From assembly GCA_002701875.1 (NCBI GenBank), contig NZWI01000037.1, positions 7,851 through 20,928 on the forward strand: DNA of 13,078 nucleotides, written 5' to 3'. The notes below the pieces were generated by a model. It searched no databases. It saw only the letters and a list, made by a program, of their open reading frames with translations, and had not been told where the DNA came from. This document shows, in pieces, positions 5,322 to 11,379 of the stretch; within the stretch, counting starts at the first letter, position 1, and each line of letters starts with the position of its first letter. Made by a program: the position numbers and the translations under genes. The stretch comes from Fidelibacterota bacterium (lineage in GTDB: Bacteria > Fidelibacterota > Marinisomatia > Marinisomatales > TCS55).

Positions 5322-6614
5322 TTACCGAGTTAAACGATATATTAAAATTGCTGCACGTGAAGTCGTTTTAGGCAAAGTAGATAGGTCTAGCCATTCATCC
5401 TCAGAGTGAGCACCATGTCCATCCGGACCCATCCCAGCTAATGCAGCATCGACATATGGAGCAACAAATGAAATATCAGCAGCACCACGCATACTTGGGT
5501 CTAGTGGTTTAAGGACGCCATAGCCAAGAGATTTATTAATTACTTCTAATTTATCTAGTAAATCATAGTTTGCCTGAGTTGGTTCCATTGGAGGATAACT
5601 AGTCTTAAACTCTATCGTAGCAGTCGTACCTGGTAGATTATTAGAAACAATTTTTTTCATGGAATTTATGGCGTCATCTAATTGATCTATAGAGATAGTC
5701 CTAATTCCTCCATGAACAACGACTGATTGTGAAACAACATTTGTCTTTCCATATGCATTTCCTCGTGCATTCAATGGGTCATATCCTACATCCGTTCCAC
5801 CGACTATAGCACCAGGGTTAAATGTAAGATACTGCTCTTCTGAGAGCTCTTCCCTAAATGCATTTAAAATTCTTGAAGACTCAAATATTGCGCCATAACC
5901 TAAAGACTCACTAAATACTCTAGATGAATGCCCTTGGATACCGGTTGTTTTTAAAATCCAAGATGAGGCGCTCCTTCTAGCAATTGTTCCAGTATTCATC
6001 CCACCAGCGCCTTCAAATCCAAGTCCAACATCAGCCCACTTGCCAGCTTCAATTAATTCTTTTCTTACAATTGAAGAATGTGCGCCAAGTTTTTCTTCAT
6101 CACCAATAAATACAAGAGTAAGATCCATATCACTTAATACACCTACATGATCTAAGGCTTTCATAGCATAAATCATTGATACATCACCAGACTTCATATC
6201 TCCTATACCTGGACCGAAAGCTTTATTTCCTTTACGAATATATTTTTGAAAAGGATGATCAATTTCAAACACCGTATCTAAATGACCGATCATAATAAGT
6301 TTTTTACCTTTACCTCCTCGCATTTCTGCAAAAAGATGGCCAGCTCGTTTTACGCTATCGTGGTAAGTCACCCAATATGTCTTAAATCCTAGTTTATCTA
6401 ATTCTTTTTGAAAAATTTTCCCTACTTCTTTATTGCCATCAATATTTAAGGAACCGCTATTTATATTTACAACTCGTTCAATTAGCGCAATTGCATTGTC
6501 ATTTTGTTTTTCAATATAGGTTCTGATTTTTTTCTCTGTACGATTTAGCTTTTGACTAAATCCAATACTAGAGATCAATAAAACAGATAAGGATAATCGA
6601 AAGAAAATATTCAA
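5322..6614 (-). CDS. Exported M20-family zinc carboxypeptidase (glutamate carboxypeptidase type)
   Basis: A 430-residue metallopeptidase of family M20, CPG2-like. A signal peptide (about 1-20, ending SIGFSQ) sends it to the periplasm or beyond. The di-zinc site is complete: GHLDTVFE (H111 ligand, D113), GIGDMKSG (D139 bridging), GDEEK (E173 general base, E174 ligand), GFEGAG (E201 ligand) and GAHSEDEW (H403 ligand). The dimerisation insert is present, with GIQGHSS (H229). CPG2 relatives remove C-terminal glutamate from peptides or folates; substrate here is inferred. The start is TTG at 6612-6614 with no obvious ribosome site, 5 bases after the pxpA stop; an upstream in-frame TGA limits the alternatives. 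As last gene of the 5-oxoprolinase operon, it probably feeds glutamate- or pyroglutamate-type products to the symporter. Confidence 0.9.
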   Translation of the reverse strand: MNIFFRLSLSVLLISSIGFSQKLNRTEKKIRTYIEKQNDNAIALIERVVNINSGSLNIDGNKEVGKIFQKELDKLGFKTYWVTYHDSVKRAGHLFAEMRGGKGKKLIMIGHLDTVFEIDHPFQKYIRKGNKAFGPGIGDMKSGDVSMIYAMKALDHVGVLSDMDLTLVFIGDEEKLGAHSSIVRKELIEAGKWADVGLGFEGAGGMNTGTIARRSASSWILKTTGIQGHSSRVFSESLGYGAIFESSRILNAFREELSEEQYLTFNPGAIVGGTDVGYDPLNARGNAYGKTNVVSQSVVVHGGIRTISIDQLDDAINSMKKIVSNNLPGTTATIEFKTSYPPMEPTQANYDLLDKLEVINKSLGYGVLKPLDPSMRGAADISFVAPYVDAALAGMGPDGHGAHSEDEWLDLSTLPKTTSRAAILIYRLTR

Positions 6615-6619
6615 GAAGG

Positions 6620-7339
6620 TTATTGGATCTGTTCTTTTACTGCTTGCGCAATATCAACAGCGTTGGGGGTGTCACTGTGAACACATACACTGGTTATATT
6701 TATTGGAACTGAAGAACCATCTACAGTAAGAATATTTCCATTTAGCATTTCTTTCATCTGATTTGCCGCTTTTTGTGGATCTGTAATTAATGCATCATCA
6801 AACTTACGGCTTCTTAGTGTACCATCTGCTTCATAAACACGATCAACATACCCTTCAGATATTGTATCTAGTCCTAATGCGTCAAAAACAGTTAACATTT
6901 TGGAGCCGGCCAATCCAACTGCTTTATATGAAGAATCAACATCAATAATGGCTTCGGCAATTGTTTGCGATACCTCTTCATTATTAACTGCAAAATTATA
7001 AAGAGCACCATGCGGTTTTACATGAGTTAATTCCATTTCATACTCAGAGGCTACATCAACTAAAGCTTCTATTTGATCTCGAATTGAGTCCAATAATTCG
7101 TTAGGGTCAATGTCTTTCATCTCTTCTCTACCAAAATTTTCCTTATCAGGGTAACTTGGGTGCGCGCCTATATGAAGACCTTTATCTTTTGCCAATGTAA
7201 GCATTGCACCCATCATTTCTGGATCACCTGCATGACCTCCGCAAGCGACATTGATAGATGTGACATGATTCATAAGTTTTTCATAAGTACCATCGGCTAA
7301 AAGTGTATTCAACTCACCTATATCTGAATTAATATCCAT
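6620..7339 (-). CDS. pxpA: 5-oxoprolinase subunit PxpA (LamB/YcsF family)
   Basis: PxpA is one of three subunits of the prokaryotic ATP-dependent 5-oxoprolinase (with PxpB and PxpC), which opens 5-oxoproline to L-glutamate in the cytoplasm. Family phrases are all present: MDINSDIGE (1-9), NVACGGHAGD (30-39), IGAHPSYPDKENFGR (57-71), THVKPHGALYN (105-115), VGLAGS (141-146), YVDRVYEADG (164-173) and SVCVHSDTP (217-225). I chose ATG at 7337-7339 (239 residues) because AAAGGA at 7345-7350 sits 5 bases upstream and the protein then starts like other family members. The frame is open to 7378, and an ATG at 7343-7345 overlaps the symporter stop as ATGA; that start would add only Met-Ser but leaves no room for the ribosome site. 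The usual FADR is YVDR here, a mild variation. Confidence 0.94.
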   Translation of the reverse strand: MDINSDIGELNTLLADGTYEKLMNHVTSINVACGGHAGDPEMMGAMLTLAKDKGLHIGAHPSYPDKENFGREEMKDIDPNELLDSIRDQIEALVDVASEYEMELTHVKPHGALYNFAVNNEEVSQTIAEAIIDVDSSYKAVGLAGSKMLTVFDALGLDTISEGYVDRVYEADGTLRSRKFDDALITDPQKAANQMKEMLNGNILTVDGSSVPINITSVCVHSDTPNAVDIAQAVKEQIQ

Positions 7340-7341
7340 GC

Positions 7342-8727
7342 TCATCCTTTCTTCATTCCAATATAAACTATCAAGCAAGAAGTTACGAATGGGAAAATCC
7401 TTTCAAAAGGATTTCCCTCAGGCTTTAGGTCTGAATAGTAAAATATTAAGGTTCCGAAAAATCCAACTAACATTGCAATTATAGCATATTTTGAATCTAC
7501 GTTTCCATTTAAACGACCAATAAGTAGAGGGCCAAAAGCAGAACCCATGGCTGAAAAAGCAAATAAAACTCTGCTATAAATAGTTTTATCAACAAAAATT
7601 GCCATTGCCACTGCTAAGACACAAATAACTGCAACAATTATTCGAGTATCTTTCAAGCTAAACTCGTCATTTTTACTTTTCAAATCATGACTTATGCTTG
7701 ATGCAGCAACTAAAAGTTGGCTGTCAGCTGTAGACATTATAGCTGATAACACTGATGCTAAAATTATACCTGCAATTACTGGAGGAAGTAATTGGTTGCT
7801 CATTTCTATTAAGATTTGTTCATTTTTAGGAATATCAACTAATAATCTGCCTGCCCAACCTAATAATATCATCCCAGGATATATTATCAGAGCCCATACA
7901 ATTGCAATCATTCTTCCCTCTTTAATACTTTGACCAGGCTTAATTGCTAAAAATCTATTTACAACATGTGGTTGACCTGGATAACCAATTCCTATTCCCA
8001 TAGTGCCAAGTATAAACCCTAATGAAATAATGCCTCCAAAACCGGCAGGAGATAAAAATAAGCTTTGATTAGATAGATTACTTAGTATATCATTTAGTCC
8101 AACATGAATTATTGCAACAATTGGTAGAATAATTGCTGATATGGCCATCATGACACCCTGAAGTGTATCAGTCACACTCACGGCCCAAAATCCACCTAAT
8201 AAAGTATATACTAGTATAATAGTAGCTCCAATCAGGATACTTATATTCTTCTTTATACCAAAGGTAGATTGAAATGATTGACCAGCTGCATCAAATTGGG
8301 ATGCTATATAAAATATAAAACAAAATAAAATGATGCCTGATGCAATCCAGCGGATTAATCGAATAGATTCTCCATTTTGATTTGTTGCCAAGACATCCGT
8401 CAAGGTTAAAGCATTTATATTACGCCCATATGAGCTTAATCGAGGAGCTATATAAAACCAATTAATAACAAATCCTGACAAGGTTGCAGGAAATAACCAA
8501 ATTGCAGGCAAACCCCATAAGTATGCTGCACCACTAACACCTAAGAGTGTCCAGGCAGAAGATGAACTTGCAGATGCGCTTAACGCAGCAACCCATGGCC
8601 CTAGTTTCCCTCCGCCAAGGAAGTAATCAGATGTATTATTTGTCCTACGATTTGCCCAAACACCAATGATAATCAAAATTACTTTATAAAAGATAAGGGT
8701 TATAAGAATCGCTAAAGAACTATCCAT
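7342..8727 (-). CDS. Sodium:solute symporter family (SSS/PutP-like) permease
   Basis: A 461-residue polytopic symporter of the LeuT-fold SSS family, closest in style to PutP. Visible landmarks are DYFLGGGKLGPWVAALSASAS (34-54), GFWAVSVTDTLQ (179-190), GYPGQPHVVNRFLAI (248-262) and SAIMSTADSQLLVAASS (328-344). The last one holds the Ser-Thr pair (S332/T333) that forms part of the Na2 sodium site in this family. Position 55, the functionally important Asp of E. coli PutP (SAGASDMSGW), is Ser here (SASASSSSAW), so proline specificity should not be assumed. The start ATG overlaps the pxpC stop by 8 bases, and the stop nearly touches pxpA. Being embedded between pxpC and pxpA makes 5-oxoproline, glutamate or a small peptide the most likely cargo, by context only. 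The C-terminus is short compared with PutP (502 residues). Confidence 0.9.
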   Translation of the reverse strand: MDSSLAILITLIFYKVILIIIGVWANRRTNNTSDYFLGGGKLGPWVAALSASASSSSAWTLLGVSGAAYLWGLPAIWLFPATLSGFVINWFYIAPRLSSYGRNINALTLTDVLATNQNGESIRLIRWIASGIILFCFIFYIASQFDAAGQSFQSTFGIKKNISILIGATIILVYTLLGGFWAVSVTDTLQGVMMAISAIILPIVAIIHVGLNDILSNLSNQSLFLSPAGFGGIISLGFILGTMGIGIGYPGQPHVVNRFLAIKPGQSIKEGRMIAIVWALIIYPGMILLGWAGRLLVDIPKNEQILIEMSNQLLPPVIAGIILASVLSAIMSTADSQLLVAASSISHDLKSKNDEFSLKDTRIIVAVICVLAVAMAIFVDKTIYSRVLFAFSAMGSAFGPLLIGRLNGNVDSKYAIIAMLVGFFGTLIFYYSDLKPEGNPFERIFPFVTSCLIVYIGMKKG

Positions 8728-9646
8728 GATCTGCTATTCTCTTTACATAGATTTCTCGCTCATATCGAAGTGTTTCTGCTTTTTCTAATGATACCAATTC
8801 AAATTGAAATTTATCACCTGGCTTCAATTGGCCTACTTTATGCAGCTCAGATGTTATTACACTAGCAATTTTGGGGTACCCTCCAGTCGTTTGATGTTCT
8901 ACAAAAGAAATAATTGGAAATCCATTACTTGGTAGTTGAATTGCTCCTAGGGGAACACCCTCAGTTATTATTTCATTTTCATTATCTAATTTTAGAGATC
9001 TACCTTCCAATCGAATGCCCATTCTGTTTGATAAATTAGAAACAATATATTTTTGACTAAGAAAAGTTTGCCAAGTAGATTTTGATATGTAATCGCTCTG
9101 TAACCCTTTTATTATTAATAATTTAGACATATCTATATCAAGTAATTTATTAACTATGATTGGTTTTAATGATTTCTGGTCATCACCTATTTTTAATACA
9201 TCATTTTTTTTTAAAGATCTGCCATTCAAACCTCCCATTTTAGAAGTTAGATGAGTGGTTTTAGCAGACAACACATTATTGATATCAATTCCTCCTCTTA
9301 TAGCCAGATAGCATCGTGATCCTTGCATCGATTGGCCAATGGATAGAACTTGACCTGATTGAATAGATGTATTCTTATAAAAATGTAACGATTCACCATC
9401 AATTTTTGCATCAAACTTGCTACCCGTTAATGATATGTTAGTATCAATATCAAATCTAAAGTCACCTCCTACCAATGTCATTTCTATACCCGCTAAATTT
9501 TCTTTATTCCCGACTATTAGATTGCCTAATCTAAAAGATAAATCATCTGCTGCGCCCGATGAAGAAATCCCATAATGACTATATCCATTTCTACCAAGAT
9601 CTTGTATGGTAGTCTGAAGACCAGGATTAAGTATTTTTATACTCAA
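8720..9646 (-). CDS. pxpC: 5-oxoprolinase subunit PxpC (biotin-dependent carboxyltransferase/KipA-like family)
   Basis: A 308-residue PxpC, the family often mislabelled 'biotin-dependent carboxyltransferase' or 'urea amidolyase related' because it shares the AHS2 (CT_A_B) fold. It acts with PxpB and PxpA in ATP-dependent 5-oxoproline hydrolysis. Family phrases: GLQTTIQDLGRNGYSHYGISSSGAADD (9-35 region), GNLIVGN, CYLAIRGGIDI, MGGLNGRSLKKNDVL, LSNRMGIRLEG, and the long C-terminal block EGVPLGAIQLPSNGFPI...TTGGYPKIASVI...LKPGDKFQF. The start is TTG at 9644-9646, overlapping the pxpB stop as TTGA, with AAAGG seven bases upstream, so it is translationally coupled. The downstream end overlaps the symporter start by 8 bases. 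Confidence 0.94.
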   Translation of the reverse strand: MSIKILNPGLQTTIQDLGRNGYSHYGISSSGAADDLSFRLGNLIVGNKENLAGIEMTLVGGDFRFDIDTNISLTGSKFDAKIDGESLHFYKNTSIQSGQVLSIGQSMQGSRCYLAIRGGIDINNVLSAKTTHLTSKMGGLNGRSLKKNDVLKIGDDQKSLKPIIVNKLLDIDMSKLLIIKGLQSDYISKSTWQTFLSQKYIVSNLSNRMGIRLEGRSLKLDNENEIITEGVPLGAIQLPSNGFPIISFVEHQTTGGYPKIASVITSELHKVGQLKPGDKFQFELVSLEKAETLRYEREIYVKRIADHG

Positions 9647-10326
9647 GAAGAGACCTTTTGGAATTCTTCTTCTGCAATCGAAACAAAACGAATTTGGTCT
9701 CCCATTTTTAAATAGCTATTTTCAGGATTCTTCGTATTAAATATCGTTTTGGGTGTTTTACCAATTAAGTTCCAACCCCCCGGTGAGGATAATGGGTAAA
9801 TCCCTGTTTGATTTCCAGCTATACCAACTGAACCCGCATCAACTAATTTTCTAGGAGTCTCAAGTCTAGGAGTTGAAATTGACTCATCCATACCACTACA
9901 GTAGGGAAACCCAATAGAAAACCCAATAAAATTAACAGTGTATATTGCCTCAGAATGGAGCTTTATCACTTCAGATTCACTTTTGCCCGAATAATTGGAA
10001 ATACGCTTTAAATCGGGTCCATATTCACCACCATAGACTAAAGGAATTTCTACAGTTCTTGTTTTACTTTCAATTTCAATATCATAATGAGTGAGTGCAT
10101 CTTTTAAATATGTATTGATTTGATCTAATTGAGCTGAATTTGATAGCGAAACCATTATTGAATTATATGCTGGGTGAATATTCATAATTTCATCTTTTGG
10201 ATGATTCAAAAGATATTTTGTAAAAGAAAAAACCTGCTTGTGCAGGTCTTTAGTAATTGAATCTCCAAATTTAACTAAAATTGCTCGATCAGATGCTGGT
10301 ATAAGCTTAGGATAAGAGATCAGAAT
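9643..10326 (-). CDS. pxpB: 5-oxoprolinase subunit PxpB (KipI-like), with probable non-standard ATT start
   Basis: PxpB (AHS1/KipI family) partners PxpC in 5-oxoprolinase. Core motifs are VEIPLVYGGEYGPDL, IGFSIGFPYCSGMDE, TPRKLVDAGSVGIAGNQTGIYP and SPGGWNLIGKTP. From the first conventional start (TTG at 10207-10209) the protein has only 188 residues and lacks the family N-terminus. Reading upstream in the same frame there is no stop for 39 more codons, and they encode LIPASDRAILVKFGDSIT, matching the usual 'GDxALxVEFG' opening. The frame reaches an in-frame TGA at 10330-10332. Candidate starts are ATT at 10324-10326 (227 residues), CTG at 10321-10323, or ATA at 10327-10329. I prefer ATT because it overlaps the upstream TAA by one base, the geometry of a TAATG coupling. 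A sequencing error or a mutated ATG is equally possible. A terminator-like hairpin lies inside. Confidence 0.9.
   Translation of the reverse strand: MLISYPKLIPASDRAILVKFGDSITKDLHKQVFSFTKYLLNHPKDEIMNIHPAYNSIMVSLSNSAQLDQINTYLKDALTHYDIEIESKTRTVEIPLVYGGEYGPDLKRISNYSGKSESEVIKLHSEAIYTVNFIGFSIGFPYCSGMDESISTPRLETPRKLVDAGSVGIAGNQTGIYPLSSPGGWNLIGKTPKTIFNTKNPENSYLKMGDQIRFVSIAEEEFQKVSS
10227..10247 (-). terminator. Intrinsic-terminator-like hairpin inside pxpB
   Basis: On the coding (minus) strand, ACCTGC (10247-10242), a four-base loop ACAA, and GCAGGT (10237-10232) form a six-base-pair GC-rich stem. It is followed at once by a T-run (10231-10227), then C and TTTT. This is the exact form of an intrinsic terminator, but it sits about 80-100 bases inside pxpB, over codons for KDLHKQVFSF. 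It may be chance, or an attenuator that ends transcription when pxpB is not being translated. On the plus strand the hairpin lacks a good T-run. Confidence 0.45.
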
Positions 10327-10553
10327 TATTCACTAATTATTTCAACTGAATGAATTGGAAGAGTCCATAGTTTATCATTTTCATCTTTAAATAAATAACG
10401 TGTAGGAAAATGAGCAATACTATCTAAAATTAATTCTACGCCCTTTTCTAAGTCTCCTTGAACTTCATGATGAAATTTTACTGTTTTAAACTTTGTACCC
10501 TTTTTCACACCGAAATGTTCGGTTGACAATTGATCGAACTCTTTAGTTTCCAT
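10326..10553 (-). CDS. 75-residue protein of unknown function, first gene of the 5-oxoprolinase operon
   Basis: A small soluble protein with no signal peptide or membrane segment. I do not recognise it. The start is ATG at 10551-10553 with a clear AAGGA ribosome site (10560-10564) six bases upstream, so it is very probably translated. The sequence has alternating strand-like pieces (GTKFKTVKFHHEV, GVELILDSIAHFPTRYLF, KLWTLPIHSVEIISE), consistent with a small beta-barrel, SH3-like or PilZ-sized domain; this is only a shape guess. Its TAA (10326-10328) overlaps the proposed ATT start of pxpB, which puts it in the same transcript and makes it a candidate accessory or regulator. It lies divergent to the rlmB-like gene. 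Confidence 0.82.
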   Translation of the reverse strand: METKEFDQLSTEHFGVKKGTKFKTVKFHHEVQGDLEKGVELILDSIAHFPTRYLFKDENDKLWTLPIHSVEIISE

Positions 10554-10614
10554 TAATAATCCTTAATTATATATATGAAATTAAAGTTTTTCATACAATT
10601 GTTTCAATCAATGG
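10554..10614. promoter_or_regulatory. Divergent promoter region between the 5-oxoprolinase operon and the rlmB-like gene
   Basis: These 61 AT-rich bases separate two divergent start codons and must hold both promoters unless one lies inside a gene. Toward the plus strand, TACAAT (10594-10599) is a good -10 match about 15 bases before the rlmB-like ATG, without a clear -35. Toward the minus strand, a TATATA/TATAAT run around 10565-10576 could be a -10, with TTGTAT upstream at about 17-base spacing as a -35. The elements overlap, so the two promoters may compete. No clear operator palindrome is visible. Confidence 0.4.
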
Positions 10615-11379
10615 ATGAATTCTATTATTATATTCAACTTAATGAGAAAAGGTCATCATACTATTTTTGGTATAAATGGATGCGCTGCTGTACTAGAATC
10701 AAAAAAATACAAAATAATAGAAATAATTATCCAATCTGGTAGCCCAGCGGAAAAAGATGGGAAGGTTACCCATGCTCTTGGTTATCATGGTGGCCATATT
10801 AAAGTTCTCTCCTCATCTCAGTTTAAATCAAAATTTCCCCAATGGCGGACACAAGGTATTGTTGTAAGATTTTCTGGTATAGTTGATTGCGATCTTCCTT
10901 CTTACAAAAAACAAACTGGCAATATTGGCTTACTTGTGTTAGATGGTATTGAAGACCCTCAAAACTTAGGGCAAATTATTCGTACCTCAGAATGTGCGGG
11001 AATAGATGGTATCATAATTTCAAAACATTCTAGTTGTGGTATCACAGATACCGTCTTACAGGTTAGTCAAGGTGCATTCACTCAAGTGCCTATTCATATA
11101 GTATCTAATTTGAATCAAACTGCAACACAACTTAAAAAAGAAGATTTTTGGATAACTGCATTTGAAAATGGCATCCAATCAAAAAATTGGCATGAAATAG
11201 ACTATAAGGGAAAAATGCTAATTATAGTTGGCAGTGAAGGTCGTGGAATAAAAAAGTTGAATTTAGAAAATAGTGACTTTCAAGCAAACATACCCATGCA
11301 AGGTCAAATCAATTCTCTAAATGTATCTGCTGCTGTCAGTGCGATTTTATTTGAGCGCTTAAGGCAACTATCTATTTAA
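10615..11379 (+). CDS. rlmB: SpoU/TrmH-family RNA 2'-O-methyltransferase, RlmB-like
   Basis: A 254-residue SPOUT methyltransferase that should 2'-O-methylate a ribose in rRNA (RlmB acts on G2251 of 23S rRNA in E. coli) or tRNA. Residues about 15-88 form the small substrate-binding domain (HHTIFGINGCAAVLES...). The knotted catalytic domain has motif 1 LVLDGIEDPQNLGQIIRTSE (107-126, with N117 and R123), motif 2 IVGSEGRGI (204-212, E208) and motif 3 IPMQGQINSLNVSAAVSA (226-243, S234 and N236). Length and N-domain favour RlmB over TrmH or TrmL, but the exact target is not proven. The ribosome site before 10615 is weak; an in-frame ATG at 10642 is an alternative, starting just before the family's usual opening. 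It is the only plus-strand gene and ends 6 bases from the convergent barrel gene. Confidence 0.9.
   Translation: MNSIIIFNLMRKGHHTIFGINGCAAVLESKKYKIIEIIIQSGSPAEKDGKVTHALGYHGGHIKVLSSSQFKSKFPQWRTQGIVVRFSGIVDCDLPSYKKQTGNIGLLVLDGIEDPQNLGQIIRTSECAGIDGIIISKHSSCGITDTVLQVSQGAFTQVPIHIVSNLNQTATQLKKEDFWITAFENGIQSKNWHEIDYKGKMLIIVGSEGRGIKKLNLENSDFQANIPMQGQINSLNVSAAVSAILFERLRQLSI

Follow-up and report, generated by a model that had tools for sequence, protein, structure and literature searches.

The pxpB locus and its open frame

The window analysed here is a stretch of 13,078 nucleotides from a Fidelibacterota bacterium, whose genome (G000) is incomplete, being distributed over 66 contigs and 67.6% complete. 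On its minus strand the window holds a gene for a protein of 75 residues, pxpB, pxpC, a sodium/solute symporter gene, pxpA and one more open reading frame. PxpB is subunit B of 5-oxoprolinase, which opens 5-oxoproline, and the genes of both its partners, pxpC and pxpA, are present, with the symporter gene lying between these two. The pxpC product scores above the cut-off of TIGR00724 and below that of NF045499, the PxpC equivalog. The features discussed below are the following.

Positions 10326 to 10553, minus strand: upstream gene of 75 residues and a candidate for termination-reinitiation, with the end of its TAA 5 nt from ATC 10320
Positions 9643 to 10320, minus strand: most likely full frame of pxpB, 225 residues from an ATC start (10320-10318) to the stop TGA (9645-9643), as judged from the conserved ATT column and from PF02682 and TIGR00370
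Positions 10324 to 10326, minus strand: ATT, alternative pxpB start proposed earlier, overlapping the preceding TAA; column not conserved
Positions 10321 to 10323, minus strand: CTG, alternative pxpB start, in a column that is CTG also in L011 and L013 (g4)
Positions 10318 to 10320, minus strand: ATC, most likely pxpB start, in the ATT/ATC/ATA column common to nine genomes of g1, g6 and g7
Positions 10207 to 10209, minus strand: TTG, first in-frame canonical codon of pxpB, rejected as a start; it would cost 37 residues, PASD included
Positions 8720 to 9646, minus strand: pxpC, whose TTG start shares bases with the stop of pxpB (TTGA)

The 75-residue reading frame (METKEF...IISE; 10553-10326) precedes pxpB and ends in TAA 10328-10326, and scans of its product (METKEFDQLS...) against Pfam and NCBIfam gave no match. 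A similar protein of 75 residues is encoded upstream of pxpB in L003, L007 and L008.

Between the stop TGA at 10332-10330 and TTG 10209 the pxpB frame meets no further stop, and none of the 39 codons before that TTG is ATG, GTG or TTG, just as the sequence-only reading of this window had stated. Reading down from 10329, the codons are ATA 10329, ATT 10326, CTG 10323, ATC 10320, TCT, TAT, CCT and AAG, after which the frame continues with CTT, ATA and then CCA GCA TCT GAT, which encodes PASD. The protein would have 188 residues from TTG 10209, 225 from ATC 10320 and 227 from ATT 10326, so that the earlier lengths, short from the TTG and longer from upstream, are correct. The same is true of the overlap that had been pointed out at the TAATT junction: the last A of TAA 10328-10326 is the A of ATT 10326-10324.

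That reading had also taken the extension for the N-terminus of PxpB, and here the evidence is strong. Namely, PF02682 matches residues 8-203 of the 227-residue form over profile positions 3-199 of 202 (E-value 2.3e-63; 214 bits vs a cut-off of 22.1), and TIGR00370 matches residues 12-215 over profile positions 2-202 of 202 (202.5 bits vs a curated cut-off of 145.55), both matches beginning within the extension. Over codons 3-38, pN/pS is low, between 0.17 and 0.40, in the six pairs formed by the window with L003, L004, L007, L008, L009 and L010, with pS in these pairs at 0.68 to 0.83 and hence near saturation. Five further pairs gave values from 0.19 to 0.39, except for the near-identical L004-L005 at 0.61; over codons 39-56, the L011-L013 pair gave 1.78. 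When the 225-residue form was compared with six solved relatives, the alignment began at query residue 7 for 2phc_B, at residue 11 for 5dud_B and only at residue 13, 28, 28 or 88 for the remaining four, so that not all of these relatives have the first residues in their alignment. Judged by these comparisons, the codons ahead of TTG 10209 are coding and make up the N-terminus of PxpB. Thirty-nine open codons in a row are unremarkable on their own; what is remarkable is conserved coding sequence that, in the alignments described below, lacks a canonical start in 11 genomes.

The probable initiation codon in the window and in its relatives

A sample of 130 genomes of the order contained a match to PxpB in 23 (a first sample of 61 had given 15). 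Between the in-frame stop and PASD, a canonical start codon is absent from 11 of the 23 loci (the window, L003-L011 and L013) and present in another 11, the remaining locus, L024, having been set aside from the classification, as its N-terminus is truncated. In L012, L014, L015, L016, L019, L020, L021, L022, L023, L025 and L026 the canonical codon lies at most 30 codons upstream, it being understood that this criterion scores the presence of such a codon and not its use. Of the PxpB loci of the genome_contigs set, the best 80 of 591 confirmed were examined, and every one of them has a canonical codon no more than 30 codons upstream; L027 is from Marinimicrobia and the other loci are from many phyla. 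It is also L027, from an uncultured Candidatus Marinimicrobia, that gives the best match to the window protein in that set, at 50% identity. In the two genomes of the same genus, G001 (77% complete) and G002 (58% complete), no match to PxpB was found. In the PxpB tree the 11 rows without a canonical start fall in several spots and need four changes, at least two of which are forced by starred branches, and a single origin is therefore unsupported. The distribution may reflect repeated origin, transfer, or a canonical codon that was lost and regained.

Which codon, then, would start the protein? The codon aligned to ATC 10320-10318 of the window is ATT in all eight of L003-L010, seven of them from g7 and one from g6, and this column is alone upstream of PASD in holding ATT, ATC or ATA throughout the nine genomes of g1, g6 and g7. 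The next-best, column 8, is broken by ACT in L003. In L004, L005, L007 and L010 an in-frame stop stands two codons before the conserved ATT, leaving one codon between. On this evidence we favour ATC 10320 as the start of pxpB in the window, if with some reserve.

The proposal made from the window alone, that initiation takes place exactly at ATT 10326-10324 within the TAATT junction and yields 227 residues, had an attractive geometry, since an overlap with the preceding stop is well suited to reinitiation. However, just three of the 11 genomes, the window, L008 and L013, have ATT in this column, and the conserved one is found two codons further downstream. What is more, 3 nt separate ATT 10326 from the end of the purine-rich AGTGA that precedes it, closer than the usual spacing, and the predicted duplex with the anti-Shine-Dalgarno sequence is unfavourable (+0.4 kcal/mol). 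As both the ATT 10326 column and the position of the upstream stop vary, the TAATT overlap is not the conserved element, and we regard a start at this ATT as unlikely. In other words, aligning the junction in relatives, the check that had been suggested, bears out a rare codon upstream of the TTG, with ten relatives likewise devoid of a canonical one, but not the exact codon, which was probably placed two codons off.

A start at CTG 10323 is a slightly weaker candidate still. Here the two genomes of genus g4, L011 and L013, are instructive: their conserved column reads AAT, and one codon earlier they have CTG, as in the window. Lacking the conserved ATT, they need the CTG, and the g4 start is probably a CUG one codon upstream of the conserved column.

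Preceding genes, ribosome supply and readings that dispense with a rare start

The ribosome-binding signals before the conserved column differ widely between genomes. Predicted anti-Shine-Dalgarno duplexes reach -6.0 kcal/mol in L004 and L005, -4.7 in L006, -4.0 in L007 and -3.9 in L009, with an AGGA or AAGGA element in L004, L005, L007 and L009. They are weaker in L010 (-1.9), in L011 and L013 (-1.5 each), in L008 (-1.0), in L003 (-0.9) and in the window (-0.4). Against a background of 1396 internal ATT/ATC codons from reading frames of the own genome, shadow frames included (median -0.6, 5% quantile -5.9 kcal/mol), even the strongest of these are no more than close to the 5% quantile. In the window no Shine-Dalgarno match was found before either ATC 10320 or ATT 10326; AGTGA ends 9 nt before the former. 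Because such a match is missing and the preceding stop ends just ahead of the ATC, termination-reinitiation appears the likelier supply of ribosomes for pxpB in the window. At its other end, pxpB is overlapped by pxpC over 4 bases in the window and in six relatives: the window has TTGA at 9643-9646, and ATGA is found in six of ten relatives in the group (L003, L004, L005, L007, L008 and L010).

The gene that precedes pxpB is not the same throughout. In L004, L005, L006 and L009 it is a long gene labelled acylase-like by resemblance; in L011 and L013 no upstream gene was identified, and L010 has only a doubtful reading frame of 40 codons. The distance from the first base of the upstream stop to the conserved codon is 6 to 12 nt in all of the eight identified cases but L007, where it is 40 nt; taken together, the eight stops occupy frames 0, 1 and 2 relative to pxpB.

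This variation speaks against a reading in which no separate start would be required at all, namely that a programmed frameshift or stop readthrough fuses the upstream gene to PxpB. It is true that the two frames abut, that in L004, L005 and L009 the long upstream gene is in the pxpB frame with just a stop between, and that the genome comparison described below recovered prfB, a known frameshift gene, from the same genomes. However, the identity of the upstream gene differs between relatives, and its stop is found in three frames and, in L007, 40 nt away, so no single recoding event could serve all. We have rejected recoding common to the group on these grounds and hold the fusion reading in general to be highly improbable.

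Even less plausible is a shorter PxpB of 188 residues from TTG 10209, with a dispensable stretch upstream. This is the form that a mechanical list of open reading frames gives. Yet the first canonical codon is not conserved in position, falling at column 16, 17, 27, 33, 39, 47 or 57 across the 11 genomes, and we rejected the short form for this reason; in addition, the stretch it would discard has low pN/pS and includes the beginning of both family profiles. Finally, a sequencing or assembly error, or a mutation as had been offered earlier, that turned an ATG of pxpB into another codon is hardly credible, for although the window does come from an incomplete genome in 66 contigs, the same lack of a canonical start is seen in ten relatives.

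What the comparisons point to, therefore, is a rare start codon of pxpB and not an error, and probably the ATC two codons inside the ATT that had been proposed. More broadly, it is likely that this lineage of uncultured marine Marinimicrobia begins the translation of PxpB at a weak non-canonical start, AUC or AUU being the likeliest codons and CUG the probable one in g4, and that this start is probably aided from upstream.

Expected behaviour of the proposed start, and other genes like pxpB

How might such a start work? The pxpB of the window would initiate at AUC 10320-10318, and its eight relatives at AUU in the same aligned position. The initiator tRNA would pair with AUU or AUC through a third-base mismatch, so that, as with infC, initiation is expected to be weak and to be selected against by IF3. 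Ribosomes that have just terminated on the preceding gene, a few bases ahead of the pxpB start, would probably account for much of the initiation in the window. Since pxpC overlaps the stop of pxpB, a weak pxpB start should limit both subunits. Initiation at the non-canonical codon, control by IF3, coupling and low output are thus what we infer for pxpB. The literature is in keeping with such a scheme. Namely, IF3 destabilises initiation complexes at codons besides AUG, GUG and UUG, with infC and sigR as the worked examples, the latter having a conserved non-canonical start outside infC that IF3 represses (PMC5472188). Excess IF3 lowers reinitiation, and does so less in the presence of a Shine-Dalgarno sequence (PMC2268962), and with an AUU/CAU pair, raised IF3 led to a smaller share of full-length product (PMC10158994). 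Taken together, these accounts suggest a pxpB start that is weak and sensitive to IF3 and that would limit PxpB and the coupled PxpC.

Genes of this kind were also sought by comparing 80 pieces of the own genome (1.136 Mb) with 60 pieces of G015 (1.056 Mb of about 1.9 Mb). A first comparison gave 675 usable pairs and 137 candidates, many of them antisense shadow frames; once pairs overlapped by better-scoring ones or truncated at an edge had been dropped, 480 reciprocal best pairs were left, some shadows remaining. The approach is confined to genes present in both sets and detects a start if 6 or more aligned residues precede a canonical codon, so that its yield is a floor and not a census. 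In nine of the 480 pairs, 20 or more aligned residues precede the first canonical codon of both genomes. Four of these, of 71 to 142 residues, were dropped, as they lie inside longer reading frames on the opposite strand; the three of them that were scanned had no NCBIfam match. The five genes kept are pxpB and the NCBIfam-named infC, prfB, selD and lpxA. The prfB entry is explained by the known prfB frameshift, and that of selD by an in-frame TGA of the selenocysteine-containing SelD kind. In selD (L177, positions 9777-10772, plus strand) a TGA stands in frame directly before GCA TGC AAA, both in the own genome and in G015. The lpxA entry is explained neither by a frameshift nor by a TGA of the selenocysteine type.

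In the case of infC, a match was present in 35 of 40 family genomes, from which 30 loci (L127-L156) were taken and 29 aligned by motif. All 29 rows have ATC at the expected start behind AGGAG, and the thirtieth locus, L146, missed by the motif, has the same ATC. Between the in-frame stop and the motif a canonical codon is absent in 23 of the 29 and present somewhere in the other 6. For lpxA, 122 of 130 genomes gave a match, and 22 were read, namely the own genome, G015 and 20 chosen by hand, from seven families. The loci are these.

L188, positions 14748 to 15548, minus strand: lpxA, ATT/ATC/ATA at the start
L247, positions 6447 to 7247, plus strand: lpxA, likewise
L277 to L296: lpxA, likewise

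All 22 have ATT, ATC or ATA at a position 3 to 5 codons upstream of the His in IHPT. From the in-frame stop to this conserved His, 16 have no canonical codon and 6 have one, which in L290 and L296 is near enough to serve as the start. By eye, most rows also have a G-rich, Shine-Dalgarno-like element in front.

One could go further and suppose that AUU, AUC and AUA starts form a standing regulatory class in Marinimicrobia, as opposed to being relics, with infC, lpxA and, in one family, pxpB translated in step with IF3 activity. We consider this rather unlikely; if true, it would tie envelope synthesis (lipid A, through lpxA) and nitrogen scavenging (5-oxoproline, through pxpB) to the state of the translation machinery. 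Quite apart from such a class, gene callers that assume ATG, GTG and TTG miss starts of this kind, and annotations of these genomes are likely to give such proteins a wrong start or to cut them short. None of the open-licence PMC titles listed deals with a non-canonical start of pxpB or lpxA, which does not prove its absence from print. Both pxpB and, in the order genomes read, lpxA are lineage-conserved cases found through comparison alone, and they make it testable whether discrimination by IF3 reaches beyond infC.

Among the known systems closest to pxpB is infC, with its AUU/AUC start and autoregulation by IF3: as proposed for pxpB, an AUC start is conserved in the family, here in infC of the same genomes. 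Unlike pxpB, whose match to the anti-Shine-Dalgarno sequence is weak or missing in several genomes, all 29 infC rows carry AGGAG, and pxpB is a metabolic gene in which feedback on IF3 is not evident. In the same order, lpxA resembles pxpB in having ATT, ATC or ATA at its start, but it mostly has the G-rich element and spans seven families of the order instead of one. Escherichia coli pcnB is a gene other than infC that starts with AUU; it is likened to pxpB by that codon, although the gene and the phylum are different. The sigR of Streptomyces starts with GTC in 32 of 34 species, and not with AUU or AUC, and has a strong conserved ribosome-binding site and an experimentally shown start (PMC5472188), whereas that of pxpB is proposed from sequence comparison. 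That said, it is like pxpB in having a lineage-conserved non-canonical start and in being the first gene of a coupled pair (PMC5472188). Characterised non-canonical start codons are few, according to the same paper (PMC5472188), and on the present comparison pxpB joins the small known class in which, as in infC and sigR, they are conserved.
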